From positions 1-37,323 of IMG/VR virus record IMGVR_UViG_3300008113_008039: a DNA stretch of 37,323 nucleotides; one strand, given 5' to 3'. The notes under the pieces are model-generated. The model made no database searches. It worked only from the letters and a program-made list of their open reading frames with translations, and was not told where the DNA came from. This DNA is from a virus. Below, piece after piece: positions 10,416 to 37,323 of the stretch (its first letter is position 1; each line of letters opens with the position of its first letter). The position numbers and the translations under genes were made by a program.

Positions 10416-12572
10416 ATGGGATGGTTCAGCGAGTTTCACAAGAAAAACAAACAAAAACCAGTAAGGGCAGTCAATGATCACGACAAGCATCAGGCCATGC
10501 TTGATGCCATTGCTCCTTACGCAAAATTAAAAGTCCAGTCAAACTTAACAGAAGTTAAGATATCTAAATCAACAAAAAATACCAAAGTATGTTTTATATT
10601 GATGCCAGAGTGGGCCACAAACTTTCCTCCTTATAACCTCGCTAGATTAAATTCTGTGGTTAAGGAATCAGGATACGATTCTAAATGTATAGATTTAAAT
10701 GTTAAATCTTGGAATTATTATAAAAATAATTTAGAAAAAAAGATAGATTTCGATCCTTGGAGCGGACCTAGAGATTGGTGTTGGGTAGGGGACGACTACT
10801 ATAAAAATATTCATCAACACCTAGAACCGTTTTATAGACAACAAATAGAAGAAATTAAAAAATTTAAGCCTGATGTTATAGGCTTTACCATCTACTATTG
10901 TAATTTTGAATCAGTGAAGTGGATGGCAGCAGAACTAAGAAAAGAACTCCCTGATATCAAAATCGTAGTTGGCGGCCCACATATGCAGGCAAGACCAATA
11001 GTAGATGAAATTTTTGATTTTGGTGTTGCAGGAGAGGGAGAACTATTGATTCTAGAAATATTAGAAGAAATAGAAAACGGAAATATTAATGCTGAATATA
11101 GATTGCGTTATCAACCCGAAGAACAGAGACTTAATCTCAACAGTCTTCCTCTACCAGATTACAGCGATATAGATTTTAACGAATATGCTGTACCTAACGG
11201 TATCAATAGCGAACTCAGCAGAGGATGTACTGCTAAATGTACCTTCTGTGAAGAAACACATTTCTGGAAATACAGACAGCGTCAAGCAGTAGACGTTATA
11301 CAAGAGATAGAAACACTGTATTATACTAAAGGCACAGATGTTGTATGGTTTCTAGACAGTCTTGTTAACGGTAATCTTAACGAATTAAGAGCGTTTGCTA
11401 AAGGAATAATCGCTAAAGGTATCAAAATAAAATGGGTAGGATATTGCCGCAATGACGGAAGGATGGATGCAGACTATTATAAAGATCTAGCAGACAGCGG
11501 ATGTTTCATGTTGAGTTATGGATGCGAATCTGCCAGCCAACGAGTGCTAGACGATATCGCCAAAGGTACTACCACAGCCGATATGGAACAGAATTTTAGG
11601 GATGGATCTGCTGTAGGAATAAAAGCACATACTAATTGGATTGTAGGATTCCCTACAGAGGACTATCAAGATTTTGCAGATACTATGACATTCATATGGC
11701 GTAATAGAAATAATGGTATTGTTGATATTTCTCCAGGGTTTGGATTTGGTCTTTCTGTATCAACTATTGCAGGGCAGAACCCAGCAAAATTTAATTTACT
11801 TGATCACAAATACATGGACACATGGATTACCAAAGATTTTAAACTTGGTAAATTGCATGTATTGTCTAGAGTAAAATCTTTTGCTATATTCTTACAGAAT
11901 TTAGTCAGCGAAACTGATATCGCAATATCTCATAGACCCAACCTTCCTAGATTACACTATAAGTTGAATTGGAAAAATCGTAAAACTATTAAAGAAATAG
12001 AATACGAACAATTTGATTACAATATTATTAAATCCGATATCAACCCTTTTGCTGACACCTTGGTCAATGAAATGTTTGTGTTGTTCCGAATGCTATGGAG
12101 AACACGTGGTGCTTATGATATTGAAGTGATCTTTGATGAAGATCTAGATATGAAAGAATTTGGAGATCGAAATGCCGGACCGTTTTGGGCTAAACAAAAA
12201 TTTGAAATAGACGAACAGGGTCTATGGCAAGCACATTTTACGTTTAAATTTAAGCAGCCTGAAAGTTTAATAGACCCCCCTGATCCGCTTACTCCTAGAA
12301 GACCTTTTTTTGCACAAGACTATTCTAGAGTTGAAACCAACAACGCAAAGAGGGCTAGAAAATTAGCCAAACCAAGTTGGGGAGATGAGGGCCGATCTCA
12401 TGAAGAATTTCATGCCTTACTAGAAGAAGAAAAATTCCTAAATTCCACAGTCGATCTATCTTTCGAATATGAGTGGCAGGGTCAGGGCGATTGGTCTAAT
12501 CCGGAAAGATTTAGCGTAGAGCCATCTAAAGGCAAAATTAAAAAAATCACCCCCATAATTCCCATAACATAA
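10416..12572 (+). CDS. B12-binding-domain radical SAM protein
   Basis: This 718-residue protein has an N-terminal Rossmann-like cobalamin-binding-type domain (about residues 55-215: VCFILMPEW, NLARLNSVVKESGYD, KPDVIGFTIYY, IVVGGPHMQARP, GVAGEGELLILEIL). The radical SAM core follows, with C-x3-C-x2-C at Cys271, Cys275 and Cys278 (SRGCTAKCTFCEE) and family motifs such as VWFLDSLVNGN and LSYGCESASQRVLDDI. The last 200 residues are an extra domain of unknown role. Radical SAM enzymes of this architecture perform methylations and other modifications of unreactive carbons. The substrate is unknown. It starts 9 bases after the glutaredoxin stop. Confidence 0.88.
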   Translation: MGWFSEFHKKNKQKPVRAVNDHDKHQAMLDAIAPYAKLKVQSNLTEVKISKSTKNTKVCFILMPEWATNFPPYNLARLNSVVKESGYDSKCIDLNVKSWNYYKNNLEKKIDFDPWSGPRDWCWVGDDYYKNIHQHLEPFYRQQIEEIKKFKPDVIGFTIYYCNFESVKWMAAELRKELPDIKIVVGGPHMQARPIVDEIFDFGVAGEGELLILEILEEIENGNINAEYRLRYQPEEQRLNLNSLPLPDYSDIDFNEYAVPNGINSELSRGCTAKCTFCEETHFWKYRQRQAVDVIQEIETLYYTKGTDVVWFLDSLVNGNLNELRAFAKGIIAKGIKIKWVGYCRNDGRMDADYYKDLADSGCFMLSYGCESASQRVLDDIAKGTTTADMEQNFRDGSAVGIKAHTNWIVGFPTEDYQDFADTMTFIWRNRNNGIVDISPGFGFGLSVSTIAGQNPAKFNLLDHKYMDTWITKDFKLGKLHVLSRVKSFAIFLQNLVSETDIAISHRPNLPRLHYKLNWKNRKTIKEIEYEQFDYNIIKSDINPFADTLVNEMFVLFRMLWRTRGAYDIEVIFDEDLDMKEFGDRNAGPFWAKQKFEIDEQGLWQAHFTFKFKQPESLIDPPDPLTPRRPFFAQDYSRVETNNAKRARKLAKPSWGDEGRSHEEFHALLEEEKFLNSTVDLSFEYEWQGQGDWSNPERFSVEPSKGKIKKITPIIPIT

Positions 12573-12575
12573 ATA
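12568..12575 (+). promoter_or_regulatory. Late promoter motif CATAAATA
   Basis: This octamer overlaps the stop of the radical SAM gene and precedes the ATG at 12595 by 19 bases. It would drive the Sm-like and PAAR genes late. Confidence 0.55.
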
Positions 12576-12594
12576 TTTCAAAATAGGACAACAT

Positions 12595-12888
12595 ATGTTA
12601 ATAGACAAAGGATTAAGTGTCGGATCAGTAGTAACTATGAAATTAATCAATGGTGAAGAAATCATGGCCAAATTAGTTGAAGAGACTGCTGTAGGATTTA
12701 AGATTTCAAAACCTCTATCTCTAAATGCCGGTCCAAAAGGACTAGGAATGATTCCATTTTTGTTTACTGTAGATCACGAAAAAGATATCGTAATCAATAA
12801 ATCAGCAGTGATGGCTATCACTACCACTGAACAAGAGTTTGCCAATCAATATACTCAGGGTACCACAGGTATCGCTATTGCAGGTTAA
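12595..12888 (+). CDS. Sm-like-fold phage protein
   Basis: This 97-residue protein begins with a strand pattern seen in Sm/LSm domains (VGSVVTMKLINGEEIMAKLVEETAVGFKISKP: two strands around a Gly-Glu turn), a second glycine-rich loop (AGPKGLGMIPFL) and later strands (DIVINKSAVMAI). It ends in a flexible Gly/Thr tail. Sm-like small proteins are common in marine T4-like genomes and are of unknown function. It has a late promoter and is directly followed by the PAAR gene (2-base gap), so a virion or baseplate link is as likely as RNA binding. Confidence 0.6.
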   Translation: MLIDKGLSVGSVVTMKLINGEEIMAKLVEETAVGFKISKPLSLNAGPKGLGMIPFLFTVDHEKDIVINKSAVMAITTTEQEFANQYTQGTTGIAIAG

Positions 12889-12890
12889 TC

Positions 12891-13154
12891 ATGCCAGGAG
12901 TCAGCAGAGTAGGAACAGATAAAGCAGGTGGCACTATTGTCGGTAACCTTGCCCCTACAGTCTTTGCCAATGGTTCACCAATCGCCGTAAAAGGCGCAGC
13001 AGTAGCAGGACACGGTCGAGCACCGCACTCGGGACCTGTGATGAGCGGCAGCAGTGGCACAGTTAAAGCCAATGGTATTTCTATTTGTCGTGCAGGCGAC
13101 TCTGCCACCTGCGGTCATGCTGCTTCGGGCAGCGGTAATGTTATAGCAGGTTAA
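12891..13154 (+). CDS. PAAR-motif spike-tip protein
   Basis: This 87-residue protein has the repeated Gly/Pro/Ala-rich strands of PAAR proteins (MPGVSRVGTDKAGG, NGSPIAVKGAAVAGHG, NGISICRAGDSATCGHAASG) with several His and Cys residues that can bind the metal at the cone apex. PAAR proteins cap the central spike of contractile tails, as T4 gp5.4 does, and sharpen it for membrane piercing. The length is normal for a single-domain PAAR protein. The late promoter at 12568 fits a structural role. Confidence 0.9.
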   Translation: MPGVSRVGTDKAGGTIVGNLAPTVFANGSPIAVKGAAVAGHGRAPHSGPVMSGSSGTVKANGISICRAGDSATCGHAASGSGNVIAG

Positions 13155-13155
13155 T

Positions 13156-13566
13156 ATGAAAAAATTATTTTGGAACATTTTAGGATTCTTAAGTTTAGGT
13201 ATGGCCTATATTGGAATCATCACTCCCGGCATACCCTACAGTATCTTTGTAGTATTTGCTGCCTATTGTTTTAGCAAGGGCAGTGAGCGTATGCATCGTT
13301 GGATCTACAATCATAAGATATTTGGGCCGTTCTTAACTAATTGGAATGAAAGACGTGTATTCCCACAAAAGATGCGTTACCTAATGTTAGGTATGATGAC
13401 ATTGAGTTTGTGTATTATGTTTTTCACAGGTGTGAAACCTATAGGAATTTTATCTACCGCAGTGTTTATGGCTCTAGTGGCTGTATGGGCATGGCGCTTC
13501 CCAAATTCAGTAGAAGAACACGATCGCCGCAAAGCAGAAGGTAAGAGGATTGGATGGCTGAAGTAA
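13156..13566 (+). CDS. DUF454 (YbaN-type) inner-membrane protein
   Basis: This 136-residue protein has the DUF454 signature: an N-terminal LGFLSLGMAYIGIITPGIPYS segment, FVVFAAYCFSKGSERMHRWI, the FGPFLTNWNERR motif, and two more hydrophobic segments (about residues 73-92 and 95-112). The C-terminal tail is charged. Cellular homologues are small inner-membrane proteins of unknown function, often near heme, DNA-repair or respiration genes. It starts one base after the PAAR stop and overlaps the oxygenase gene by 13 bases. A phage copy could modify the host inner membrane; no role is known. Confidence 0.8.
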   Translation: MKKLFWNILGFLSLGMAYIGIITPGIPYSIFVVFAAYCFSKGSERMHRWIYNHKIFGPFLTNWNERRVFPQKMRYLMLGMMTLSLCIMFFTGVKPIGILSTAVFMALVAVWAWRFPNSVEEHDRRKAEGKRIGWLK

Positions 13567-15204: not shown

Positions 15205-15273
15205 ATGAAAGCGTATGAATTTATTGTAGCAATTTTAATTGTTACATTTCTAGTAATACATTTTGTTTTTTAA
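15205..15273 (+). CDS. 22-residue single-pass membrane peptide
   Basis: The ORF encodes MKAYEFIVAILIVTFLVIHF plus two residues, nearly all membrane-spanning. AAGGA lies 6 bases upstream of the ATG. Small membrane peptides of this size are hard to prove from sequence. The ribosome binding site and its place between cspA and the tmRNA acceptor piece support it. The ORF might overlap the precursor RNA of the acceptor piece. Confidence 0.4.
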   Translation: MKAYEFIVAILIVTFLVIHFVF

Positions 15274-15341
15274 GGAATTGTTGTAATCCCTTCAAAGTGA
15301 AGGCATTCTGGACGCGGGTTCGACTCCCGCCAGGTCCACCA
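15274..15341 (+). ncRNA. ssrA: Permuted tmRNA (ssrA), acceptor (3') piece
   Basis: The end of a tmRNA lies here upstream of its own 5' half. The T-arm GCGGG (15314-15318), TTCGACT loop and CCCGC (15326-15330) follow the conserved TGGAC. Acceptor strand CAGGTCC (15331-15337), discriminator A and encoded CCA (15339-15341) come next. CAGGTCC pairs over 7 bp with GGGCCTG at 15480-15486, with one G-U pair. This order, acceptor piece first, is that of circularly permuted two-piece tmRNAs known from Alphaproteobacteria, some Betaproteobacteria and cyanobacteria. The 5' boundary is uncertain. No matching 5' acceptor strand or D-arm upstream makes it an ordinary tRNA. Confidence 0.85.
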
Positions 15342-15352
15342 AAAAAGGTTTT

Positions 15353-15478
15353 ATGCTTAACATATTATTGCTGATTTTTATTGTTTATTGTGTTTGCCAC
15401 TGGGCTTATGCATTAGCAACATATGATTGGACAAAGTTTGATGAAGATCAGGAACAAGCAAAGAAAGACTTTTTTTGA
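15353..15478 (+). CDS. 41-residue membrane protein in the ssrA intervening segment
   Basis: The ORF lies wholly between the two tmRNA pieces, 11 bases after CCA and ending 1 base before the coding piece. It encodes one hydrophobic segment (MLNILLLIFIVYCVCHWAYA) and an acidic/basic tail (WTKFDEDQEQAKKDFF). AAGG lies a few bases before the ATG. In two-piece tmRNAs this spacer is normally removed from the precursor, so a coding spacer would be unusual. The ORF could be chance; the composition is that of a real membrane peptide. Confidence 0.45.
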   Translation: MLNILLLIFIVYCVCHWAYALATYDWTKFDEDQEQAKKDFF

Positions 15479-15479
15479 T

Positions 15480-15725
15480 GGGCCTGCCATGGTTTCGACA
15501 GGGTGAGATAATAGAGACGGCAACACGGTAAAGCAGAAACCGTAGGGTTGGGGGAACTCGGCCGAAGAAGCAAAAAAAGTAAAAGCAAACGCTGATACAT
15601 TTGAGTTTGGCGCACTAAACTTCACAGGTAATACCGTTCGCGGTGCTGCCAATGAAGGTAGATTCGTCCTAGCAGCCTAAGAAACTGCAACTCCGAGGTA
15701 GTTATACCTTGTCATCCAAAATAGC
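15480..15725 (+). ncRNA. ssrA: Permuted tmRNA (ssrA), coding piece with tag reading frame
   Basis: The piece begins GGGCCTGCCATGGTTTCGACAGGG in segments GGGCCTG (acceptor 5' strand) and GGTTTCGACAGGG, the conserved tmRNA D-loop-like block. An A-rich stretch precedes the resume codon, as in E. coli. The tag frame runs from GCA at 15585 to TAA at 15678-15680 and ends VLAA. A small hairpin (AGGTA 15696-15700 with TACCT 15705-15709) follows the stop. With SmpB, tmRNA frees stalled ribosomes and tags the nascent chain for proteolysis. The 3' end is uncertain; a terminator follows at 15728. Confidence 0.88.
15585..15680 (+). other. tmRNA tag reading frame (31 codons)
   Basis: Starting at the GCA AAC resume position, 105 bases from the 5' end of the coding piece, the frame reads ANADTFEFGALN..., then ...GAANEGRFVLAA and stop. 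Known tags are mostly 8-15 residues. The final ten residues, ANEGRFVLAA from 15648, look like a normal tag by themselves. Either the tag is long, or the true resume codon is the GCC at 15648, or about 63 bases were inserted. Confidence 0.6.
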
Positions 15726-15727
15726 AG

Positions 15728-15753
15728 AAAGCACCTTCGGGTGCTTTTCTTTT
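15728..15753 (+). terminator. Rho-independent terminator of the ssrA unit
   Basis: GCACC (15731-15735), a TTCG tetraloop and GGTGC (15740-15744) are followed by TTTTCTTTT. The flanking AAA/TTT extends the stem. Confidence 0.9.
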
Positions 15754-15817: not shown

Positions 15818-16627
15818 ATGTATAATTGTAAGATCATATTAGGAGTGTACTCTGTAGTTCTTGACAGCCTAGCCGCAAGTGCTGGTACAGGTTACTTAGC
15901 AGGCGACACTATTACTCTTGCTGGAACAGCATTGGGTGGTACTGTGGCTAACAATCTAATTGTTACTGTGGCCACAGTTGGCGCTGCTGGTAAAGTTGCT
16001 ACGTTTGGTGTAGTAGGTACAGGTCGCATCGGTGACGGCACAGTTGATGTTCAAGTTGATGTTACTGGTACGGACAATACTGATACCTATACACTGATTG
16101 GTAATAGCACAGACTACACTATCACAAAAACAGATGATAGTATCACTGCTGTTAGCACAGTGGCTACTAACGTAACTTTTAATCTAGCAGATCATGACCG
16201 AGTAGTTTTTGACGACAAAGCCTTTGCATTTGACGCTGATGGCCGCGCAGGAGATGTCTATGCATTATTGGCAGCCGCACTTGGTGAAAATGACGTCACT
16301 GCCGGCTTCCAAGGTATTGGTATCTATCTTGCTGACGCAGGGTGGACAACTAAACAACTAGCAGAAGCACTTTTGGCTACAGATGTTTATAAAACAGATG
16401 CTGGCGGTGTCAGCAATGAAACATTCATCAAGCACGTTTACAAAAATGTATTTGGCACAGATGCTACATTGGCACAGGTCACAGACTACACAGCATGGAT
16501 GACCAATAGCAAGTTGTCACAGGCCGATGTATTAGTAGCCGCAAGTGAATTGGCAGCATTTGAAACATCTATTGATTTGGTAGGTCTGGCTACTACAGGA
16601 ATCGAATACACTCCGGTTGTATTATAA
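15818..16627 (+). CDS. Virion-appendage-like protein with DUF4214-type C terminus
   Basis: The 269-residue ORF has an N-terminal glycine/threonine-rich repeat style common in phage tail fibres (GTGYLAGDTITLAGTALGGT, NNLIVTVATVGAAG). Its C-terminal 70 residues (FIKHVYKNVFGTDATLAQV, YTAWMTNSKLSQADVLVAAS) resemble DUF4214, found in secreted and surface repeat proteins. The start is doubtful: the ATG at 15818 overlaps a TATAAT sequence, and the AGGAG at 15841 would fit a start further in, where no ATG is available. It may be a rearranged or 5'-truncated gene. Confidence 0.55.
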   Translation: MYNCKIILGVYSVVLDSLAASAGTGYLAGDTITLAGTALGGTVANNLIVTVATVGAAGKVATFGVVGTGRIGDGTVDVQVDVTGTDNTDTYTLIGNSTDYTITKTDDSITAVSTVATNVTFNLADHDRVVFDDKAFAFDADGRAGDVYALLAAALGENDVTAGFQGIGIYLADAGWTTKQLAEALLATDVYKTDAGGVSNETFIKHVYKNVFGTDATLAQVTDYTAWMTNSKLSQADVLVAASELAAFETSIDLVGLATTGIEYTPVVL

Positions 16628-25068: not shown

Positions 25069-26964
25069 ATGTCTAAGATCATCGGTATTGACCTCGGCAC
25101 CACCAACTCATGCGTGGCTATCGTCGAGAATGGAACTTCCAAAGTTATTGAAAATTCAGAAGGTGCTCGTACTACACCTAGTATCGTTGCCTATGCCAAC
25201 GACGAAATCCTTGTAGGCGCTAGTGCCAAAAGACAATCAGTTACTAATCCCAAAAACACAATCTATGCTGCCAAGCGGTTGATTGGTCGCAAGTTCAAAG
25301 AAAAAGAAGTACAAAAAGATTTAGATCTTATGCCTTACGAAATCGTTGAAAGCAAAAACGGTGATGCATGGGTAAAGGCACAAGGCAAAGAATTAGCCCC
25401 TCCACAAATTTCAGCAGAAGTTCTTCGCAAGATGAAAAAGACTGCTGAGGACTATTTAGGTTACGAAGTAACACAGGCAGTTATCACTGTACCTGCTTAC
25501 TTCAACGATCAACAACGTCAAGCAACTAAGGATGCTGGTGCGATTGCAGGACTAGAAGTTTTGCGTATCATCAATGAGCCAACAGCAGCCGCGCTGGCCT
25601 ATGGTGTTGATAAAGCAGATAAAAAAGATCGAAAGGTCGCAGTATACGATCTAGGTGGTGGCACATTTGACGTATCAATCATTGAGATTGCTAACGTAGA
25701 TGGCGACAAACAAATTGAAGTACTAAGTACCAACGGAGACACATTCTTAGGTGGTGAAGACTTTGACCAACGTATCATGGATTACTTGGTTGAAGAGTTT
25801 AAGAAAGAACAAGGTGTCGATCTAACCAAAGATGTTCTAGCCTTACAGCGTTTGAAGGAAGCCTCTGAAAAGGCCAAAATTGAACTTTCTAGTTCTGCAC
25901 AGACTGATGTCAATCTTCCTTATGTTAGCGCAGATGCCAGCGGTCCTAAACACATGAACATTAGATTGACCAAGGCCAAATTAGAAAGTCTAGTTGAAGA
26001 TCTTATTAATCGTTCTTTGGCTCCATGCCGTACTGCCATGCAAGATGCAGGTGTTACTGCTGCCGACATTGATGAAGTTATTCTTGTTGGTGGTCAGACT
26101 CGCATGCCCAAAGTACAAGAAGAAGTTGAAAAATTATTTGGCAAAGCACCACGTAAAGATGTCAACCCAGATGAAGCAGTGGCTGTTGGAGCCGCAATCC
26201 AGGGTGCAGTACTAGGCGGTGATCGCAAAGACGTTTTACTGTTAGACGTTACTCCATTGAGCCTTGGTATTGAAACACTTGGCGGTGTGATGGCTAAGAT
26301 CATCCAAAAGAATACAACTATTCCTACCAAAGGACAACAGACATTCTCAACTGCCGAAGACAATCAACCTGCTGTAACAATCAAAGTGTTTCAGGGTGAG
26401 CGTGAACTGTGTCAGCATAATAAACTTCTAGGTGAATTTAATCTTGAAGGTATTGCTCCGGCACGTAGAGGTATGCCGCAAATTGAAGTTACCTTTGATA
26501 TTGATGCTAACGGCATTATGAATATTAGTGCCAAGGACAAGAGTACAGGTAAAGAAAATAAAATCACAATCAAATCTGATTCTGGCCTAAACAAAGAAGA
26601 AATTGAACGCATGATCAGAGAAGCAGAAGCCAATGCCGAATCAGATAAAAAGGCTCGAGATTTAATCGAAGCCAAGAATCAGGCAGAGTCTACTATACAC
26701 GAAGTAAAGCGTGACATAGAAGAATTCAAAGACACACTCACAGATACAGAAAAGTCAGAAATTGAAACTGCTGTCGCTGCTGTAGAAGAAGCGGCTAAAG
26801 GCGAAGATGCAGATAAGATTAAATCTGAACTTGAGAAAGTATATCCTGCGATGAAAATCTTGTTAGAAAAGAGAACTGCTAAAGAACAGGCCTCTCAACA
26901 ACAGGCACCACAATCACAGGAAGATAATGTAGTTGACGCTACATACACAGAGAACAAGAATTAA
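25069..26964 (+). CDS. dnaK: Hsp70 chaperone DnaK, full length
   Basis: This 631-residue protein has a complete ATPase domain ([17 protein letters not shown], residues about 4-20; [59 protein letters not shown]), the [11 protein letters not shown] interdomain linker region near 390, the substrate-binding beta domain and the helical lid. The tail ends ENKN rather than with the EEVD-like acidic end of many DnaK proteins. Length is normal. Neither DnaJ nor GrpE is encoded in the window, so host co-chaperones would be needed. It heads the chaperone island and has a late promoter. Confidence 0.97.
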
Positions 26965-26968
26965 TTAA

Positions 26969-27013
26969 AGAGGCACCTTAAGGGCCTCTCGTTAATCTTA
27001 CTTTATAAGGAGA
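26969..27013 (+). promoter_or_regulatory. dnaK-groES intergenic hairpin and shared leader element
   Basis: AGAGGC (26969-26974) pairs with GCCTCT (26984-26989); the loop holds the palindrome CCTTAAGG. No T-run follows, so it is not a convincing terminator. CTTACTTTATAAGGAG (26997-27012) follows and is identical to the dnaK leader element. No NATAAATA is present here, so groES is probably cotranscribed with dnaK. Confidence 0.6.
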
Positions 27014-27021
27014 AAAATACG

Positions 27022-28936
<1,915 letters not shown>

Positions 28937-28940
28937 TAAT

Positions 28941-28963
28941 CAATGGGGGCCAGTCCCCCATTG
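28941..28963 (+). other. Strong hairpin after groEL, no T-run
   Basis: CAATGGGGG (28941-28949) and CCCCCATTG (28955-28963) form a perfect 9-bp stem with a CCAGT loop. Without a following T-run it probably protects the groESL mRNA 3' end or attenuates rather than terminating fully. Confidence 0.6.
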
Positions 28964-28988
28964 ACACACACTGACAGAGATACTAAAA

Positions 28989-29065
28989 TATAAATATTTT
29001 GCAGAGTACCTAAATGGGCTCAGCGAACGGACATAGGGTCCAAACATTCTTACTTTTTAAGGAGA
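28989..29065 (+). promoter_or_regulatory. hsp20 leader: perfect late promoter, hairpin, CTTA/TAAG element
   Basis: TATAAATA (28989-28996) is exact. GGAC (29029-29032) pairs with GTCC (29038-29041) around ATAGG, matching the ACAGG loop of the dnaK leader. CTTACTTTTTAAGGAG (29049-29064) keeps the CTTA/TAAG stem while the loop differs by one base. Confidence 0.65.
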
Positions 29066-29072
29066 TTATAAA

Positions 29073-29510
29073 ATGACACAAATACAACGCTTTGATGCAG
29101 CCGCTCTAAACAGAGCACTTGTTGGTTTCGACCAAATGTTTAACGACATGGAACGTCGATTTGCAAACCAACTTTCCAGTAACTATCCCCCTTTCAATAT
29201 CGCTAAAATAGCAGAAAATATCTATGATATTTCTATAGCAGTAACTGGTTTTGAAAAGGATGAAATTACTGTTCAAGTAGAAGCCAATGAACTTACTGTT
29301 CGCGGAGAAAGAAAAACTTCTGATCAATTAGAACCAGAATATCTACATAGAGGTCTGGCTCTTCGTGATTTTGAAAAGACTTTCACTCTTGCAGAACATA
29401 TGAAAGTCAAAAAGGCTGAAATTAAAAACGGCATCCTTTTGATCCAGATCGAAAGGCATATTCCGGAAGAACTCAAGCCACGAGTTATTGATATCGTAGA
29501 AGTAAAATAA
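29073..29510 (+). CDS. Small heat-shock protein Hsp20 (IbpA-like)
   Basis: This 145-residue protein has an N-terminal arm (FDQMFNDMERRFANQL), the alpha-crystallin domain (about residues 35-130: YDISIAVTGFEKDEITVQVE, NELTVRGERK, EYLHRGLALRDFEKTF) and the GILLIQI strand with an IxI-like C-terminal region. It prevents aggregation and feeds DnaK/GroEL. Hsp20 genes are frequent in marine T4-like phages. This one has its own perfect late promoter and the leader shared with dnaK and groES. Confidence 0.95.
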   Translation: MTQIQRFDAAALNRALVGFDQMFNDMERRFANQLSSNYPPFNIAKIAENIYDISIAVTGFEKDEITVQVEANELTVRGERKTSDQLEPEYLHRGLALRDFEKTFTLAEHMKVKKAEIKNGILLIQIERHIPEELKPRVIDIVEVK

Positions 29511-30126: not shown

Positions 30127-30666
30127 ATGAGCCTAAAAGAACTAACCTACGAAGAACACAGACACGCCGAAACAAGACCTTTTGTAAAAGTCTTGTTCAA
30201 GGGCGATATCGACCCTCAGATCTACGCAATCTATCTCTATAACCAATTTCCCATGTACGAAATACTAGAGGTATGCGCTATGCCACACGGTATTCTCAAT
30301 GATGTGCCTGGAATTTTAAGAAGCAAATCTATTAGATTAGACTTTGAAGAATTATGGCAAGGAGAAACTAAACCTACCACATGTCCAGTAGTTGATGATT
30401 ATATCAAATATATCCTAAGCATCAAAGATGATCCTAAGAGATTAATGGCACATATCTATGTAAGACACATGGGTGATTTGGCAGGCGGCCAAATGATTGC
30501 AAAGAGAGTTCCCGGAAACGGAAAATATTATCAGTTTGATAATGTTGATAATCTCAAAGAAAAAATCAGAGCCAAAATTGACGACTCGATGGCTGATGAG
30601 GCCAAAGTATGTTTTGGTTATGCTGCCAGACTATTTGAAGAGATGATGCAGCATGTCAAACAGTAA
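30127..30666 (+). CDS. Heme oxygenase
   Basis: This 179-residue enzyme opens heme to biliverdin IXalpha, carbon monoxide and iron. The proximal ligand is His11 in TYEEHRHAE, the equivalent of His25 in HO-1, and the distal-helix signature is HIYVRHMGDLAGGQMIAKR with the catalytic-type Asp. It is shorter than plant and cyanobacterial Ho1 (about 235). The next gene, overlapping by 14 bases, is a bilin reductase that uses biliverdin. Ferredoxin would have to come from the host or elsewhere in the genome. Confidence 0.92.
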   Translation: MSLKELTYEEHRHAETRPFVKVLFKGDIDPQIYAIYLYNQFPMYEILEVCAMPHGILNDVPGILRSKSIRLDFEELWQGETKPTTCPVVDDYIKYILSIKDDPKRLMAHIYVRHMGDLAGGQMIAKRVPGNGKYYQFDNVDNLKEKIRAKIDDSMADEAKVCFGYAARLFEEMMQHVKQ

Positions 30667-31339
30667 AGTTTGGGATACTCTAATAGGTGTACAGCATCTA
30701 TTAGAACAATCATTTGAAAGAACTGGTATAGAAGTACAAGAACCCGGTATGGGGAGATTTAATCAGCCGGGTTGGATAAATCGCGTCTGGAGCAGCGAAA
30801 ATTATCGTAGAGCCCATATCGATGTAGTCGATGCCCGATCCACAAAGGGCCTCTGGATGATGCATTGCTGTGTCTTTCCGCATATCCATAACCCGGCACC
30901 CATATTTGGTTTTGATGTTATAGCAGGTAAAAACAAGATCACAGGCTGTTTCATAGATTATAGCCCTACTACAGATCGCGAGCATCCTATGATAGAATAT
31001 TTTGCTGAAGAAGTCAGCAGATACGATTGGATTAAAAAGCGTGAATTGCCAGAGTGGGCACAACGTATTTTCAGTTCTAGCATGGTGGCTGCAGGTAATG
31101 TCAGCGATGAAACTGAACTATCTCAAATCACTAGCCTAGCAGGTATTATGGTAAATCACTACGTAGAAACTGTAGGTGAAACCAACCACAAAGTAGCAGA
31201 TACAACTTTTGAACAAAATTACTATGCTCAAAATCAGAAGCAAAACCCACATACACCGCGTGTTATGGTTAGTTTAGGGCTTTCTGAAGAGGATGTTAAG
31301 ATTTTTATTCAAGATTGCCTGTTCCCGGAAATACGATAA
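30653..31339 (+). CDS. Ferredoxin-dependent bilin reductase, PcyX/PebS/PcyA-like
   Basis: This 228-residue protein has the FDBR fold motifs: YRRAHIDVVDARSTKGLWMM, the CCVFPHIHNPAPIFGFDVIA strand in segments, ITGCFIDYSP with a candidate catalytic Asp, and a C-terminal RVMVSLGLSEEDVKIFIQD helix. FDBRs reduce biliverdin to phycobilins. Phage members include PebS in cyanophages and PcyX in other ocean phages, the latter making phycoerythrobilin. Coupling to heme oxygenase and the non-cyanobacterial surroundings favour PcyX; subfamily assignment needs a tree. Confidence 0.85.
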   Translation: MSNSKVWDTLIGVQHLLEQSFERTGIEVQEPGMGRFNQPGWINRVWSSENYRRAHIDVVDARSTKGLWMMHCCVFPHIHNPAPIFGFDVIAGKNKITGCFIDYSPTTDREHPMIEYFAEEVSRYDWIKKRELPEWAQRIFSSSMVAAGNVSDETELSQITSLAGIMVNHYVETVGETNHKVADTTFEQNYYAQNQKQNPHTPRVMVSLGLSEEDVKIFIQDCLFPEIR

Positions 31340-31342
31340 ATA
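31335..31342 (+). promoter_or_regulatory. Late promoter motif GATAAATA close to a start codon
   Basis: The octamer overlaps the bilin reductase stop and ends 5 bases before the ATG at 31348. Any transcript from it would start at or just after the ATG region. Confidence 0.45.
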
Positions 31343-31347
31343 CTCTT

Positions 31348-32277
31348 ATGAGAGCATTTGAATTTGAAAAAGACATAGACTTACGACAAGTGCAGACTAC
31401 ATTATCAAAAGCAATTGTCGATGTTAAAGCACCATTTGATCAAAAAATGGCGTTTGCCAAAGAGATCGTAAGCACTGGCATTATAGATGTAGAAGCGTTA
31501 TTAACTCCTGGTGTTACTAGAAAAATTACAGACCTAGTTGTTACTAAGTATCCTGAAATTTATCAAGGTGTTGCAAGCGAGTTGATGAATATCTCTGGAG
31601 CATTTAAAAGCGGCAAGGTTAAGACAAATAGAGGCAAGGGAGAATTCTTTCTTGCAATTCTAAGTCCTCAAATCATGCTCAGTAAAGAAGGGCACGGCGA
31701 TTTAACTATCAACGGGCAGGGATACGAAGTTAAAGATAATCAGGCTCGTATAAAAGGACGCAAAGGCTACGGAACTGTTGATCAATCTAAACAGGCAGTT
31801 ATTAAAGATGTTACTAGGTTTGTAGATCAACAGGTGGCCAAAAATCCTAATAGTCCATTATCTGGAAAAACCTTTAGTGTAGGAGTTGGTGCTCAACAAA
31901 ACTTTTGGACTGAATTTGGTCCGTTAGCAATAGAAGGCGGTGCCGATCCAAAAGCGGTTACTAAGTTTGTAAAAGACATGTGGTCTAAAACAATCAAAGC
32001 CTTATACCTAAATATAACCAATCAACAACTAGCATCAATAAGTCCATTTAATGAACAAGGCGTGCTCGACTTTAAAGCAATTCATGCTCCTATGAAAGCG
32101 TTGGCGTTTGACTATTATAAAACCGCGGATGGATTTAACGGCGTACTTTTTGTAAATAGTGCCAAAATGACTATCACCTATGTTGACACTGCTGAACAAT
32201 TTATTTCTTTAATTGGCGTTAAGAAATATGGTTTCGAAACAGGCGCTCAAAACGGCATGCAAGTTGCCACTCCATAA
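31348..32277 (+). CDS. Phage protein with restriction-nuclease-like core
   Basis: Start ATG at 31348 (309 residues); the upstream in-frame TTG is inside the bilin reductase gene. It opens MRAFEFEKDIDLRQVQTTLS. The middle has GKGEFFLAILSPQIM, then GDLTINGQGYEVKDNQARIK: an acidic residue, a Gly-Asp strand and an E-x-K motif in the spacing of PD-(D/E)XK nucleases. The C-terminal half is unassigned. Proteins with this pattern occur in marine T4-like phages and may process DNA during packaging or neck assembly. The nuclease call is by motif only. Confidence 0.55.
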   Translation: MRAFEFEKDIDLRQVQTTLSKAIVDVKAPFDQKMAFAKEIVSTGIIDVEALLTPGVTRKITDLVVTKYPEIYQGVASELMNISGAFKSGKVKTNRGKGEFFLAILSPQIMLSKEGHGDLTINGQGYEVKDNQARIKGRKGYGTVDQSKQAVIKDVTRFVDQQVAKNPNSPLSGKTFSVGVGAQQNFWTEFGPLAIEGGADPKAVTKFVKDMWSKTIKALYLNITNQQLASISPFNEQGVLDFKAIHAPMKALAFDYYKTADGFNGVLFVNSAKMTITYVDTAEQFISLIGVKKYGFETGAQNGMQVATP

Positions 32278-32341
32278 TAATATCTTTTAATTTCTCATCG
32301 ATTTGCTTTAAATAATAATACCGGATACCGGGAGCGAATCG

Positions 32342-32762
32342 ATGAAAAAAATAGTAGCAGCATTATTACTAGTGCCTTCTGTTGCCTTAGCATCAGTTTT
32401 CTGGAATAGGTTACAGTTCTCACATAATGACTATCTATAGTCAAGAATTGAGTCGTAAACTGGCCCTTGCAGCAGAGCAAAAAGCAGAGTTACTAAAAGC
32501 CGAACAAGATGCTAAAAACACCACACAGGCCAAATTTATAGCCAATCTAGAAAGTCGTGTTTATAACGAATTAGCCAGACAGATAACAGAAAAATTGTTT
32601 GAAGGTCAAGGCACACAAGCATCTGGATCGTTTGCCTTTAATGGTGGTACGATCACTTATACCAAAACTGGTAATGAAATAACCATAACAATAAGAGGTG
32701 CAGACGGTAGTGTAACTACTATGACTGTGCCCATAGGAGACTTCGGATGGCTAGCACCTTAA
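32342..32762 (+). pseudogene. csgF: CsgF-like curli assembly factor with a frameshift
   Basis: Two overlapping frames make up one gene. Frame A (32342-32440) encodes a signal peptide, MKKIVAALLLVPSVALAS, then runs out of frame. Frame B carries ...FSGIGYSSHIMTIYSQELSR from about 32397, the helix ESRVYNELARQITEKLFEG and the C-terminal strands GSFAFNGGTITYTKTGNEIT and SVTTMTVPIGDF, as in CsgF. The switch lies at GTTTTCT (32396-32402). The mature N-terminal segment expected before SGIGYSS also appears missing. CsgF binds CsgG and couples nucleation to the cell surface. A sequence error, a real deletion or recoding are all possible. csgG overlaps the end by 16 bases. Confidence 0.7.
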
Positions 32763-33925
32763 AAAGATTAACTCCTATAGCGTTGGCTATCGCCCTAACA
32801 GGCTGCGGAACTTTAGGCAATTCTGTAAGATCCTTTGACGATCCTGTAGTTACTAAACCGCAGTTAAAATCAGAACCAAATTTAAAAGAACCTTCAGCAG
32901 GAGCCATTGCTGTAGCAGTCTATAATTTTAGAGATATGACTGGCCAACGTAAAGCCAGTCAGAATATTGCTAGTTTAAGTTCAGCAGTGACACAGGGTGC
33001 CGATGCTTATCTAGTGAAGAGTCTACAAGAAGTAGGTAACGGTCGTTGGTTCAAAGTATTGGAACGAGGCGGGTTAGACAACCTAGTTAAAGAGAGACAA
33101 CTTATTCGTCAAATGCGTGAACTATATCAAGGTAAGGATGCACAACCTTTACCTCCTATGTTGTTTGCGGGAATGATTTTAGAAGGCGGTATCATTGGCT
33201 ACGACAGTAACACTATAAGTGGTGGTTCTGGTGCTAGGTTATTAGGCATTGGTGGTAGCACTGAATATCGTCAAGACGAAGTTACTATTAGTCTTCGTGC
33301 AGTTTCCGTGGCCACTGGCGAAGTATTAGCGGCTGTGAATATTAGTAAAACTGTATATTCTTTCCAGGATAAATTGGGTGTATTAAGATTTTACGAGTCC
33401 GGAACTAAAAGTTTAGAATTAGAAACAGGTTCGGCAACTAACGAATCTATGAACAAGGCTGTTCAATTGGCTATTCATGCCGCAGTCATTGAATTGATTA
33501 ACGAAGGTGTCAAAAAAGGTCACTGGGCATTCAAATCTGATCAGGTAACTTCAAAACCAGCACCGCAACCTGCACCGGTTATCAGTAGCGAAATCAAAAA
33601 AGAAGTTAAAGTAGAGGAGAAGAAAGATGTCGTGGTTCAACCACAAACCAAATCCGAAACGAAAACAGAAGCCGCACCCAGTGCCGCCACCGAAGTAAAG
33701 AAAGAAGAACCAAAAAAAATAGTAGAATTATTTGATCCTAGATTTTTAAAACAAGATTCTTTTGTATATAAAGAAGCAAACGAAAAAAGTCAAAGAACTT
33801 GGCAATTAAAGAAAGGAACTGAATTAAAAATTATTACGCCTGGACCCGAAGGTTGGCACTATGTTTCAGACTCTCAGGGACGCAAGGGATTTGTTAAACA
33901 GGATGCACTGTCTGACAAACCTTAA
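32747..33925 (+). CDS. csgG: CsgG-like outer-membrane secretion pore with C-terminal SH3-like extension
   Basis: The 392-residue lipoprotein begins with a lipobox (ALTGCGTLGN, Cys about 20). Residues about 45-260 are CsgG: VAVYNFRDMTGQRK, SSAVTQGADAYLVKSL, RWFKVLERGGLDNLVKERQL, GGIIGYDSNTISGGSGAR, DEVTISLRAVSVATGEVLAA and SKTVYSFQ. CsgG forms the nonameric curli export channel. Past the usual end (E. coli 277 residues) come a Lys/Glu/Pro/Ala linker (about 265-325) and a 40-50-residue SH3-like module (WQLKKGTELKIITPGPEGWH, then RKGFVKQDAL). The gene overlaps csgF by 16 bases and precedes curlin-like genes. Confidence 0.92.
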   Translation: MASTLKRLTPIALAIALTGCGTLGNSVRSFDDPVVTKPQLKSEPNLKEPSAGAIAVAVYNFRDMTGQRKASQNIASLSSAVTQGADAYLVKSLQEVGNGRWFKVLERGGLDNLVKERQLIRQMRELYQGKDAQPLPPMLFAGMILEGGIIGYDSNTISGGSGARLLGIGGSTEYRQDEVTISLRAVSVATGEVLAAVNISKTVYSFQDKLGVLRFYESGTKSLELETGSATNESMNKAVQLAIHAAVIELINEGVKKGHWAFKSDQVTSKPAPQPAPVISSEIKKEVKVEEKKDVVVQPQTKSETKTEAAPSAATEVKKEEPKKIVELFDPRFLKQDSFVYKEANEKSQRTWQLKKGTELKIITPGPEGWHYVSDSQGRKGFVKQDALSDKP

Positions 33926-34124
33926 AGTGTTGATTTTTTTACATGTTAATTTTTTTACATGTTGAAATTTTAACAGCGGTATTTAATTTGATACACTTAC
34001 AAATTAAATAAAATTATAAGTTTTAAATCTACTCGAGGGGGAAAGTAGATAGAGAAAGAGTATTATAATTATAGGTCACTGACCAAGGACTTGCCGGTGA
34101 ATAATAAACTGGCATTAGAATAAA
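33926..34124 (+). promoter_or_regulatory. AT-rich intergenic region upstream of the curlin-repeat gene
   Basis: It contains a direct repeat of TTTTTTTACATGTT (33934-33947 and 33950-33963, 16-bp period; each holds the palindrome ACATGT). Three stem-loops follow: ATCTACT/AGTAGAT (34027-34033, 34044-34050), GGTC/GACC (34074-34084) and GCCGGT/ACTGGC (34093-34098, 34108-34113). A TATAAT lies at 34064-34069 without a good -35 box. No Shine-Dalgarno sequence is visible before the ATG at 34125. The repeat looks like an operator; the leader looks structured. Confidence 0.5.
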
Positions 34125-34829
34125 ATGAAATATAGAAAGACAGGCGTTAGCGAGTTGCCGAGTAAATTACTCGCTGTTCTGATATTGGCTTCAATGCCTC
34201 TAACAGCGGCGTTGGCAGAAAATAAGGTTTATATAGAGCAGGTGGGTAGTTCAAATACCGTAAATATAACGCAAGTCGGTAGTACTAACCGTGTAGGAAA
34301 TAGTGGTTTAAATCAAGAAAGTAAAATCACCGGTTCTAGCAATACACTAACCACATCTCAAACAGGTAGTAGCAACATAATAGATTACACAGTGATGGGA
34401 AGCAGTAATACTATTACTAAGACTGTAACTGGTGATACTAATCAAATCACATTTACCTGCGGTGATGGCCAATCAGCCTGTACCAATGTCACTAGCACAA
34501 TGACTATCGCAGGTGATACTAATACTGTAACAAGTACAATCAAAGGTAGTAATATCACCAACACCTTGAGTATTACTGGTGATAGTAATACTGTAACACA
34601 AAGTATTCTAACAAATAACAGTACAAGTAACATTACCATAGTAGGTGATAGTAATACATTCACTAGTTCTATGACTGGAGCCAGTGCCGGTTCGGGACAC
34701 CAGTTACTAGCACTAGTAACAGGAACAAGTAACACACATGCTGTCACACAGAGCGGTACTGTAAACACCACAGTAAATGTTACAACTAATGGAAGTTCTA
34801 ATAGCGTAACTGTTAACACAGGTAACTAA
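34125..34829 (+). CDS. Curlin-repeat-like secreted protein, candidate fibre subunit
   Basis: This 234-residue protein has a long signal peptide (about residues 1-31, ending LTAALAENK) and a mature chain with only a few charged residues. It is made of short repeats of the type G-[SD]-[ST]-N-T-[VI]-[ST] with alternating hydrophobic residues. It begins YIEQVGSSNTVNITQVGSTN, which matches the curlin consensus Q-x-G-x-x-N-x-x-x-x-x-Q-x-G. Later repeats lose the Gln and are Ser/Thr/Asn rich. Curlin subunits CsgA and CsgB are exported through CsgG and form amyloid. The csgG gene lies immediately upstream. It overlaps the FecR gene by one base. Confidence 0.8.
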   Translation: MKYRKTGVSELPSKLLAVLILASMPLTAALAENKVYIEQVGSSNTVNITQVGSTNRVGNSGLNQESKITGSSNTLTTSQTGSSNIIDYTVMGSSNTITKTVTGDTNQITFTCGDGQSACTNVTSTMTIAGDTNTVTSTIKGSNITNTLSITGDSNTVTQSILTNNSTSNITIVGDSNTFTSSMTGASAGSGHQLLALVTGTSNTHAVTQSGTVNTTVNVTTNGSSNSVTVNTGN

Positions 34830-35908
34830 TGAAGTATGCATGGCTTTTACTGACAATATTTGCCCTGGACGCGAATGCCGCTATTGGCACTATGAACGAA
34901 GTCCAGGGCACAGCCATTGAAATACAGAGAAGTAAAAATTCTATCTTAGGTAAAATCAATACTGCTGTTGAATCTATGGATTCTGTGTCCGTAGGATCAA
35001 GATCACAAGTTAACATCACATTTAACGACAATACCAAGGTTAAAATCACAGAGAACTCAAAGTTAGTTATAGATGATTTTGTATTTGATCCTAAAAAATC
35101 AGATGCTGGTAAATTAGGCATGAAAGTTGCTCTTGGAACAGTTAGATATGCATCAGGGCAGGTAGCAAAAAATAATCCACAAAATGTCAATATAAAAACC
35201 CCAACAGCATCTATCGCTGTACGAGGTACAGATTTCGCCATGACTGTAGATGAAGTAGGTCGCAGCCTAGTTGTATTATTACCTAGTTGTGACGATCAAA
35301 CCAAAGTTGGCAACTATCAAGTATCGGGTAATTGTACAGTTGGGGCTATTGATGTAACAACTGATGCTGGTATGGTAAGTTTGACTACTGCCTTTACTGC
35401 TACCTATGTCACTGATTCTGCACAGCCTCCGCTTCCTCCTGTGAAAGTAGATCCAGTGGCTGTGGGAAATGACAGTAATCTAAAAAAACCAGAAACTATT
35501 GCTAGAGTAGAAAACGATCGAGAAGATAAAAAAGATCGAGAAAAAGATAAATCAAAATCTAATGATGACGAAAAGAAACTAGCCAAAGACAGCACAGAGA
35601 AAAACGTGTCTGATAAGAAAGCACAGGCCGAAGAAGTTACTAGGTTATACGGAATAAACTCAGAAGGCGGTCAACAATTAGGTAACGCAGGTTCAAATCC
35701 TTGTTACCCATTCAATGACTGCGGAAATGAAAAGGGTATGAATTGGTATTACAGAAGAGATGATGATAGGGGAAATACCATAGTTGTAAAAAGCGGTGAA
35801 AAGATGGATAACACCACTTATAACATTTCCATAAATTCCAATGATGTAGAAACTAGAGTAGTAGGTGATGGTAATAATAAAGTTACAGTAAGAATATGGA
35901 ACAAATGA
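34829..35908 (+). CDS. Exported FecR-domain protein
   Basis: This 359-residue protein has a signal peptide (MKYAWLLLTIFALDANA). A FecR domain spans about residues 25-145: VESMDSVSVGSRSQVNITF, TKVKITENSKLVIDDFVFDP, LGTVRYASGQ and KTPTASIAVRGTDFAM. A highly charged Lys/Asp/Glu segment (about 225-275) follows, then a domain with a C-x6-C pair (NPCYPFNDCGNE). The tail ends YNISINSN...GDGNNKVTVRI, which is Asn-rich like its neighbours. FecR domains in secreted proteins bind envelope components. It is coupled to the curlin-repeat gene (TAATG) and to the adhesin (ATGA). Confidence 0.85.
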   Translation: MKYAWLLLTIFALDANAAIGTMNEVQGTAIEIQRSKNSILGKINTAVESMDSVSVGSRSQVNITFNDNTKVKITENSKLVIDDFVFDPKKSDAGKLGMKVALGTVRYASGQVAKNNPQNVNIKTPTASIAVRGTDFAMTVDEVGRSLVVLLPSCDDQTKVGNYQVSGNCTVGAIDVTTDAGMVSLTTAFTATYVTDSAQPPLPPVKVDPVAVGNDSNLKKPETIARVENDREDKKDREKDKSKSNDDEKKLAKDSTEKNVSDKKAQAEEVTRLYGINSEGGQQLGNAGSNPCYPFNDCGNEKGMNWYYRRDDDRGNTIVVKSGEKMDNTTYNISINSNDVETRVVGDGNNKVTVRIWNK

Positions 35909-37323
35909 AACGTATTTTACAGATTCTTTTAGTCTACATTGCTACAGCAGTATCTAACAGTTATGCACAAGACATGTATAACAGCATCGCTACTGCCTAT
36001 GTTACAACTACTATCAGTCAGAACGTTGTGTTTAACAGTGCTATGCAAGCAGGCGGCACTTTTGAACTCAGCGTGTTGGCACATAACGGCGGCGGTCGTG
36101 CAGGGCAAAGCGACACAGCCAACGTAAGGATACAGTTTTACACAGCAGGTGGATCATTGGTATCGCAGGTACAGACTAATCATTCTGCTAACTTGCCTAA
36201 CCCCAACAACGTCTGTGGCAATCCCTGTATTGATCCAGCAGTACCTTGGACGACTCTAACTATTAGTTCTACATTAACTCAAGCACAGGCTTCGACAGTG
36301 GCCTATGCTAAAATAAGTTTTTATGGTATTGACGGCAGTTATTGGGCTGGTGACTACGGTCCTTGGTATCGTGCCCCTACATTTACATTTAACGGTGGAA
36401 CCAATATGGCCTACAACCCAGAGTTTGGTCCTTACAATAACATAGCCGCACAGGGTTGGACCATCAGTCCAGCATTAGGTGCTTGTCAAGGTGCATGGGG
36501 TGGATCAAATCCCTGTATCGCCAACAGTTCAGGAACACCTGGTACAAGTACAACAGGCTTAGTTGCTAACCAAAACGGTGGAGGCCCCGACACCAACGGT
36601 GGTACGACTAGCGGTACTGCTGGCGGCTATAACTCAACAATGACTACATCAAGTCCTACAGGTGCTCCTGCAACTCCAACTCCTAGTTATCAAAATATTA
36701 GCACCTCTAGTACCAACGTTTATATTACCAACATCTATCCAACTAGTCTTAATAGTCCTGCAGGTGAAGGCGCAGAAAATGCCTTTGACGGTAACCCTAA
36801 TACCAAGTACCTTAACTTTGACAAATACAATGCCGGGGTTACTATCAAATTAAGTTCTGGTAGAGTTGTCAAGGGTTTTACATTAACAACTGCTAACGAT
36901 TTTCCTGGCAGAGACCCAACTAGTTACAAACTCTACGGCAGTAACAATGGTACTACTTGGACATTGCTCAGTGAAGGTGCTCTTAATTTAAGTAATGATC
37001 GATTTACTACCAGTTCTGAAATAACTGTAGCCAATACCAATGCCTATGTCTATTACTACATCTTCTTTCCTACTACCAAGGCAGGAGATGGCTGTGGACA
37101 AGATTGTAATTCAATGCAGATTGGAGAGATTACATTTATCTATGATGCTAATAACCCAACAACATCCTCGGACGCAGGCAGCGGAAGTGTATCTAACCCC
37201 GGCAGTTTTTGCTGTGGTGGAACTAATGCACCGTTTAACGCTAACACACAATTTACTAATAGAGTGACAGCATTCAGTATCAGACCTTTACAAGATACTG
37301 TGGTCATTATAACACAGATAGGC
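35905..37323 (+). CDS. Secreted discoidin-domain adhesin with curlin-like motif at the window end (3' partial)
   Basis: The frame is open to the last base (473 codons). It begins in the ATGA overlap with the FecR gene and has a signal peptide (MKRILQILLVYIATAVSNSYA). Residues about 23-165 form an unassigned beta domain with a C-x3-C pair (VCGNPC). A Gly/Thr/Ser/Pro linker follows (about 205-270). Residues about 272-414 resemble an F5/8 type C (discoidin) domain: ENAFDGNPNTKYLNFDKYNA, GFTLTTANDFPGRDPTSYKL and YGSNNGTTWTLL. The last visible residues are VVIITQIG, the start of a curlin-like repeat. A surface or fibre-linked carbohydrate-binding adhesin is inferred. Confidence 0.8.
   Translation, partial: MKRILQILLVYIATAVSNSYAQDMYNSIATAYVTTTISQNVVFNSAMQAGGTFELSVLAHNGGGRAGQSDTANVRIQFYTAGGSLVSQVQTNHSANLPNPNNVCGNPCIDPAVPWTTLTISSTLTQAQASTVAYAKISFYGIDGSYWAGDYGPWYRAPTFTFNGGTNMAYNPEFGPYNNIAAQGWTISPALGACQGAWGGSNPCIANSSGTPGTSTTGLVANQNGGGPDTNGGTTSGTAGGYNSTMTTSSPTGAPATPTPSYQNISTSSTNVYITNIYPTSLNSPAGEGAENAFDGNPNTKYLNFDKYNAGVTIKLSSGRVVKGFTLTTANDFPGRDPTSYKLYGSNNGTTWTLLSEGALNLSNDRFTTSSEITVANTNAYVYYYIFFPTTKAGDGCGQDCNSMQIGEITFIYDANNPTTSSDAGSGSVSNPGSFCCGGTNAPFNANTQFTNRVTAFSIRPLQDTVVIITQIG

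Follow-up and report, generated by a model that had tools for sequence, protein, structure and literature searches.

The window analysed here, a single linear IMG/VR virus record of 37,323 bases (IMGVR_UViG_3300008113_008039), ends in what its sequence indicates is a real and strongly conserved phage curli operon (type VIII secretion system, T8SS) of known type, placed in a distinct clade. The operon carries its own cargo, and we consider it rather probable that it serves to display fibres and an adhesin on the infected cell. A phage system of this basic kind had been described before; what seems to be new is the presence of sugar-binding-type heads on curlin tails, together with a re-reading of the FecR-domain protein.

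Organization of the operon in the window

The window is a phage fragment whose contig end lies inside the fifth gene of the operon. Ribonucleotide reductase, tail-fibre-like, chaperone and tmRNA genes were all carried by it, while a search for T4 portal and capsid genes within the window found neither. T4-type major capsid genes were present in the records of three operon-bearing relatives (L011, L017 and L018; 214-358 kb), indicating large T4-like phages as carriers of the operon. The chaperone block (25069-29510) contains full-length DnaK, GroES, GroEL and an HSP20. A permuted tmRNA (15225-15750) with an unusually long predicted tag best matched the betaproteobacterial family RF01850 (119 bits), a sequence-based hint to the phage host. 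Genes for heme oxygenase and ferredoxin-dependent bilin reductase (30127-31339) lie just upstream of the operon, as in about 17 loci of the window clade and none of the marine clade. The conserved protein immediately 5' of csgF (31315-32277) gave no confident match in a Pfam/PHROG family search; its GDLxxNGxxYEVK stretch resembles a PD-(D/E)XK nuclease motif. The features of the operon are:

32309-32314, plus strand: TAAATA, a T4-late-promoter-like element, 33 nt before the csgF ATG
32342-32440, plus strand: 5' piece of csgF, signal peptide only (32 aa), from the sequence and an alignment with 7 relatives
32427-32762, plus strand: remainder of csgF, out of frame with the signal peptide (Pfam CsgF, 2.6e-11; phrog_35372, 5e-23)
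32747-33925, plus strand: csgG, outer-membrane secretion pore lipoprotein with lipobox LTGC (Pfam CsgG, 1.2e-50; 74 viral relatives)
33761-33913, plus strand: bacterial SH3-like tail of CsgG (Pfam SH3_4, 4.9e-5, just under the cut-off)
34125-34829, plus strand: first curlin-repeat fibre subunit, predicted to be exported (Pfam Curlin_rpt, 3.6e-4, just above the cut-off)
34829-35908, plus strand: FecR-domain protein with a signal peptide and without an anti-sigma domain (Pfam FecR, 3.8e-12)
35771-35905, plus strand: C-terminal curlin-like strands of the FecR protein, by terminal motif comparison; the structure model has low confidence here
35896-37323, plus strand: fifth protein, variable head and discoidin/CBM32-like domain, cut by the contig end (Pfam F5_F8_type_C, 2.2e-10)
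37309-37323, plus strand: ITQIG, first motif of the curlin tail, aligned with the tail start of complete relatives

An earlier note on this DNA had read the five genes as csgF-like, csgG-like, a curlin-repeat protein, a FecR-domain protein and a discoidin-domain protein. Profile searches detected all five domains, and the last four assignments hold as they were made; the CsgF domain was also found, but in a broken frame. Overlaps of 16 nt (csgF/csgG), 1 nt (curlin/fecR) and 13 nt (fecR/fifth gene) join the genes, and a gap of 199 nt separates csgG from the curlin gene. TAAATA occurs 22 times on the plus strand of the window and 4 times on the minus strand. The window-clade loci that were examined have it near the start of csgF, and in the marine clade, L061 excepted, it is absent upstream of csgF. 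From this pattern the element may act as a promoter, and the operon may be expressed late.

Conservation of the operon in viral relatives

A CsgG scan collected 74 viral loci, and the order csgF-csgG-curlin-fecR was kept in nearly all of them where the contig permits. In the 72 locus entries with fecR, counting the window and its fragment L001, a curlin-tail protein followed fecR in 64; 7 ended at that point and L021 had an autotransporter. Expressed for loci extending past fecR, 64 of 65 encode a curlin-tailed protein next and one (L021) the autotransporter. The would-be substrates that the earlier note placed downstream of the pore are therefore present and conserved, with near-complete retention of the operon order, and loss of the downstream genes where csgGF is retained was not seen in the relatives. 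They are not the distinguishing mark that the note took them for, because curlin, FecR and a second curlin had already been reported in pelagiphages (PMC9599517). A CHASE2 cyclase is encoded downstream in relatives, beyond the point where the window's contig ends. In L003 it is followed by a D-alanyl-D-alanine carboxypeptidase (S11) gene (15893-16600), and similar-looking ORFs ending in KTRIPEA occupy the matching place in L008, L009 and L010. In some marine relatives fecR and the second curlin are separated by a gene for a protein of about 495 aa that has no Pfam match (L031:8940-10433).

This conservation bears on a rival proposal, in which the CsgG/CsgF pore serves for pinholin-like lysis or depolarisation, or for uptake, and the downstream genes are passengers. 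For phage Melnitz a lysis pore was proposed on the basis of modelling and of the proximity to thyX and ssrA, csgA/B being stated as absent (Buchholz 2022; PMC9004378). The gating protein CsgE, typical of T8SS though not essential, had no match in 11 viral records while the E. coli control was positive, and a pore without it may be ungated. Passengers, however, would be lost, and curlin, FecR and the fifth gene accompany the pore genes almost without exception. Pinholins moreover work at the inner membrane, and CsgG is a lipoprotein of the outer one. The premise that csgA/B are absent conflicts with the deposited record of Melnitz, in which two proteins are annotated as carrying curlin repeats. 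We regard the lysis or uptake pore as improbable.

The first curlin-repeat protein

The identity of the first curlin, proposed in the earlier note, was supported by periodicity and structure profiles besides the Pfam match. The 12 GxxN motifs of the protein recur with a period of 11/22 residues, a signal that none of 2000 shuffles equalled. The profile of the first-curlin family matched solved curli structures (8c50, 4e-12; 8enq CsgA, 2e-4), and 28 of 38 relatives matched Pfam Curlin_rpt. The Q ladder typical of CsgA is mostly gone from the window curlin except in the first repeats, and S, T and N make up 51% of its residues. The SH3-like CsgG tail encoded before it is common to the window, L011, L015, L018 and L021.

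Sugar-binding-type heads on curlin tails

The earlier note took ITQIG, at which the window stops, for a curlin-like motif, and intact relatives of this last gene indeed end in a curlin-repeat tail. The L003 fifth protein, 90% identical to that of the window where the two overlap, runs on past ITQIG as a curlin tail of 14 strands. Of the note's expectation that both products would bear curlin repeats, the part on the 34125 product thus holds directly, and that on the fifth product holds in complete relatives (L003). In the AlphaFold model of the L003 protein, the discoidin domain reached a pLDDT of up to about 90, and the tail formed 14 short strands, mostly at about 75-88 and lower at the very end. 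Foldseek returned CBM32 sugar-binding modules as the best folds for the discoidin part, and from this likeness the head is a putative sugar binder.

The N-terminal part of the fifth protein is strongly variable among relatives. Pfam searches on 46 non-redundant fifth proteins detected curlin repeats in 25, discoidin in 10, PA14 in 2, and GLEYA and an autotransporter in 1 each; in many marine relatives the protein is curlin-only, without a recognisable head. The PA14 cases include gp018 of the cultured pelagiphage HTVC008M, a combination of PA14 and curlin annotated merely as hypothetical. No discoidin-curlin chimera was found in a limited sample of 398 proteobacterial genomes, in which the matches fell on the discoidin part, and 10 large bacterial curlins that were checked carried no extra domain. 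We found no report of headed curlin subunits in the open-access literature. The fifth protein frequently joins a head of sugar-binding type (CBM32-like discoidin or PA14) to a curlin tail, a combination that seems to be new.

In L021 the slot of the curlin-tailed protein is taken by a head and discoidin domain fused to an autotransporter barrel (11053-13404; E = 1.2e-14). This exchange of the curlin tail for a barrel argues for surface display, and two unrelated mounts for the same type of head are the strongest argument for it. The swap also fits envelope export of the fifth protein, as do its signal peptide, the 13-nt overlap with fecR and the curlin tail. Discoidin domains occur in phage tail proteins too (phrog_17517 'tail protein', 2.8e-5), and the fifth protein might accordingly be sought in the virion or tail as an adhesin instead of among secreted subunits; given these signs of passage through the host envelope, we consider this very improbable.

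The FecR-domain protein

The earlier note had assigned no role to FecR. The FecR domain (PF04773) was present in 43 of 43 non-redundant homologues. Its N-terminus is signal-peptide-like, and hydrophobic segments elsewhere are few. A search for the anti-sigma domain DUF4880 in 11 records found none, while the control worked. The confident part of the structure model has a fold like the PupR periplasmic domain (6ovk) and also matches, more weakly, a cell-surface adhesin anchor domain (5ix9).

A curlin-like strand was found at the C-terminus of 42 of 43 phage FecR homologues, including those of Melnitz and HTVC008M, and of 3 of 3 T8SS-linked FecR proteins on genome contigs. The background of the terminal motif was 2 of 67 in unlinked FecR proteins, 4.8% at internal positions and 7.6% in shuffled tails. 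A profile test of the FecR tail concurred, with a modest margin over shuffled tails. No report of such a tail was found in the open-access literature. Because of the signal peptide, the lack of DUF4880 and the curlin-like C-terminal strand, we infer that FecR is an exported nucleator, anchor or sensor and not a cytoplasmic iron regulator.

The published view, suggested in 2022, is that FecR is regulatory (PMC9599517), and in its strict form FecR and the CHASE2 cyclase would be a circuit over the operon (iron or envelope sensing to cAMP) in which FecR has no fibre role. The likeness to the PupR signalling domain favours a circuit of this kind, as does the recurrence of FecR next to a CHASE2 cyclase in T8SS-free bacteria, at about 16 of 76 unlinked loci. 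Since the pair is common in curli-free bacteria, it is probably the older unit, with the curlin-like end as an apparent adaptation to curli. This end is confined to T8SS-linked FecR, and the protein has a signal peptide in place of the anti-sigma N-terminal domain. The two roles are also compatible, as FecR could sense the fibre. A purely regulatory FecR seems to us rather unlikely, and an exported, curlin-ended FecR would weaken the basis of the iron-regulation idea.

A frame break in csgF

The earlier reading of csgF as one gene from 32342 passed over a break in its frame. The frame from the ATG at 32342 stops early at TAG 32438-32440, and alignment with 7 relatives showed that about 32-35 nt are absent after the signal peptide, with loss of the frame. 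The absent segment encodes the conserved mature N-terminus (ELVHQFNSPAF). A programmed frameshift was ruled out, because conserved coding sequence is gone and not the frame alone. Of the claim that all five proteins are exported, four cases hold; CsgF as read does not, its signal peptide being out of frame with the CsgF body.

The break may have impaired this copy, or it may have arisen in assembly. The whole locus of the window could accordingly be decaying, or the break be an artefact, so that the copy says nothing about function. The deletion is unique to the window contig, and its junction 27-mer was absent from all other viral contigs searched. The remaining operon genes in the window are nevertheless all intact and conserved, and csgF is unbroken in every relative whose contig covers the gene. 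An uninformative copy is thus unlikely in our estimation.

Origin of the phage operon

In the CsgG tree, the phage proteins and two proteins from Caulobacteraceae MAGs formed one group (SH-aLRT 98), consistent with the published alphaproteobacterial link (PMC9599517). The window clade is separate from the marine clade, which the Caulobacteraceae MAG proteins adjoin. The contigs of these two proteins bear ordinary chromosomal (housekeeping) genes and also link FecR to T8SS, by which a phage-only linkage was ruled out. Among 39 proteobacterial T8SS loci, FecR was near csgF in one Caulobacteraceae MAG only. A T8SS contig in a Planctomycetaceae MAG (L078) falls among the marine phages in the tree, and was probably misbinned from a phage.

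Proposed function and comparison with known systems

Surface display is the best-supported reading of the module on the present sequence evidence. In the infected cell CsgG would form a pore in the outer membrane, through which the phage curlin-repeat protein would leave to build a beta-solenoid fibre. The second exported subunit, a sugar-binding-type head on a curlin tail, would mount its head on the fibre or the cell surface. FecR would be an exported structural or sensing partner attached to the fibre via its curlin-like end, and is probably also coupled to the CHASE2 cyclase of the relatives. Late in infection the cell would be coated with adhesive fibres, which might retain new hosts, siblings or particles close to the bursting cell, or block competing phages. 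Several observations count against display: the broken csgF, the failure to find CsgE, the largely lost Q ladder of the curlin, the lack of clumping of Melnitz under the culture conditions of Buchholz et al. (PMC9004378), and a FecR tail profile scoring only modestly above shuffled tails.

More tentatively, and as a possibility we hold at less than even, phages of at least two lineages may equip the infected cell with curli-like fibres bearing swappable lectin heads (CBM32-like, PA14) and with an exported FecR protein that nucleates or senses the fibre and is connected to a CHASE2 cyclase, forming a virus-encoded adhesive organelle that catches cells or particles.

Proposals for the curli genes of these very abundant aquatic phages have ranged from a lysis pore to 'sibling capture', the idea put forward when the operon was reported (Zaragoza-Solas 2020; PMC7029224). 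That the pore is almost always accompanied by a curlin-tailed, often headed protein, and that the cultured phage HTVC008M has a PA14-curlin chimera, points to adhesion and opens the question to experiments with available phage-host pairs.

The pelagiphage module of Wittmers 2022 (csgF-csgG-curlin-FecR-second curlin-cyclase; PMC9599517) resembles that of the window in the order CsgF-CsgG-CsgA/B-FecR-(second CsgA/B)-adenylate cyclase, where the cyclase position of the window is taken from relatives, and in its alphaproteobacterial affinity and conserved FecR. The window differs in its separate CsgG clade, the SH3-like tail of its CsgG, the large sugar-binding-type heads of its fifth protein, and the upstream heme oxygenase and bilin reductase in place of a histidine kinase. 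That paper called FecR a regulator and did not mention signal peptides, lectins, PA14 or CHASE2. HTVC008M gp014-gp019 and Melnitz gp99-gp104 share the five-gene order, followed there by the cyclase. Both curlins and FecR are annotated in the Melnitz record; that of HTVC008M annotates the first curlin and leaves FecR and the second curlin hypothetical. The head of the HTVC008M fifth protein is PA14, in contrast to discoidin in the window, and a Pfam search for a head in the Melnitz protein found none.

The Caulobacteraceae MAG operon (L076/L166 and L077) is csgF-csgG-curlin-curlin-fecR-CHASE2 cyclase on a chromosomal contig. Its FecR has a curlin-like end like phage FecR; unlike the window, it lacks a headed fifth subunit and its CsgG adjoins the marine phage clade. 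The csgBAC/csgDEFG system of E. coli shares with the window the CsgG pore, CsgF (frame-broken in the window) and curlin-repeat subunits. Compared with it, the phage loci, in which CsgE was not found, add FecR and a CHASE2 cyclase, and the phage locus places a lectin-type head on a subunit.
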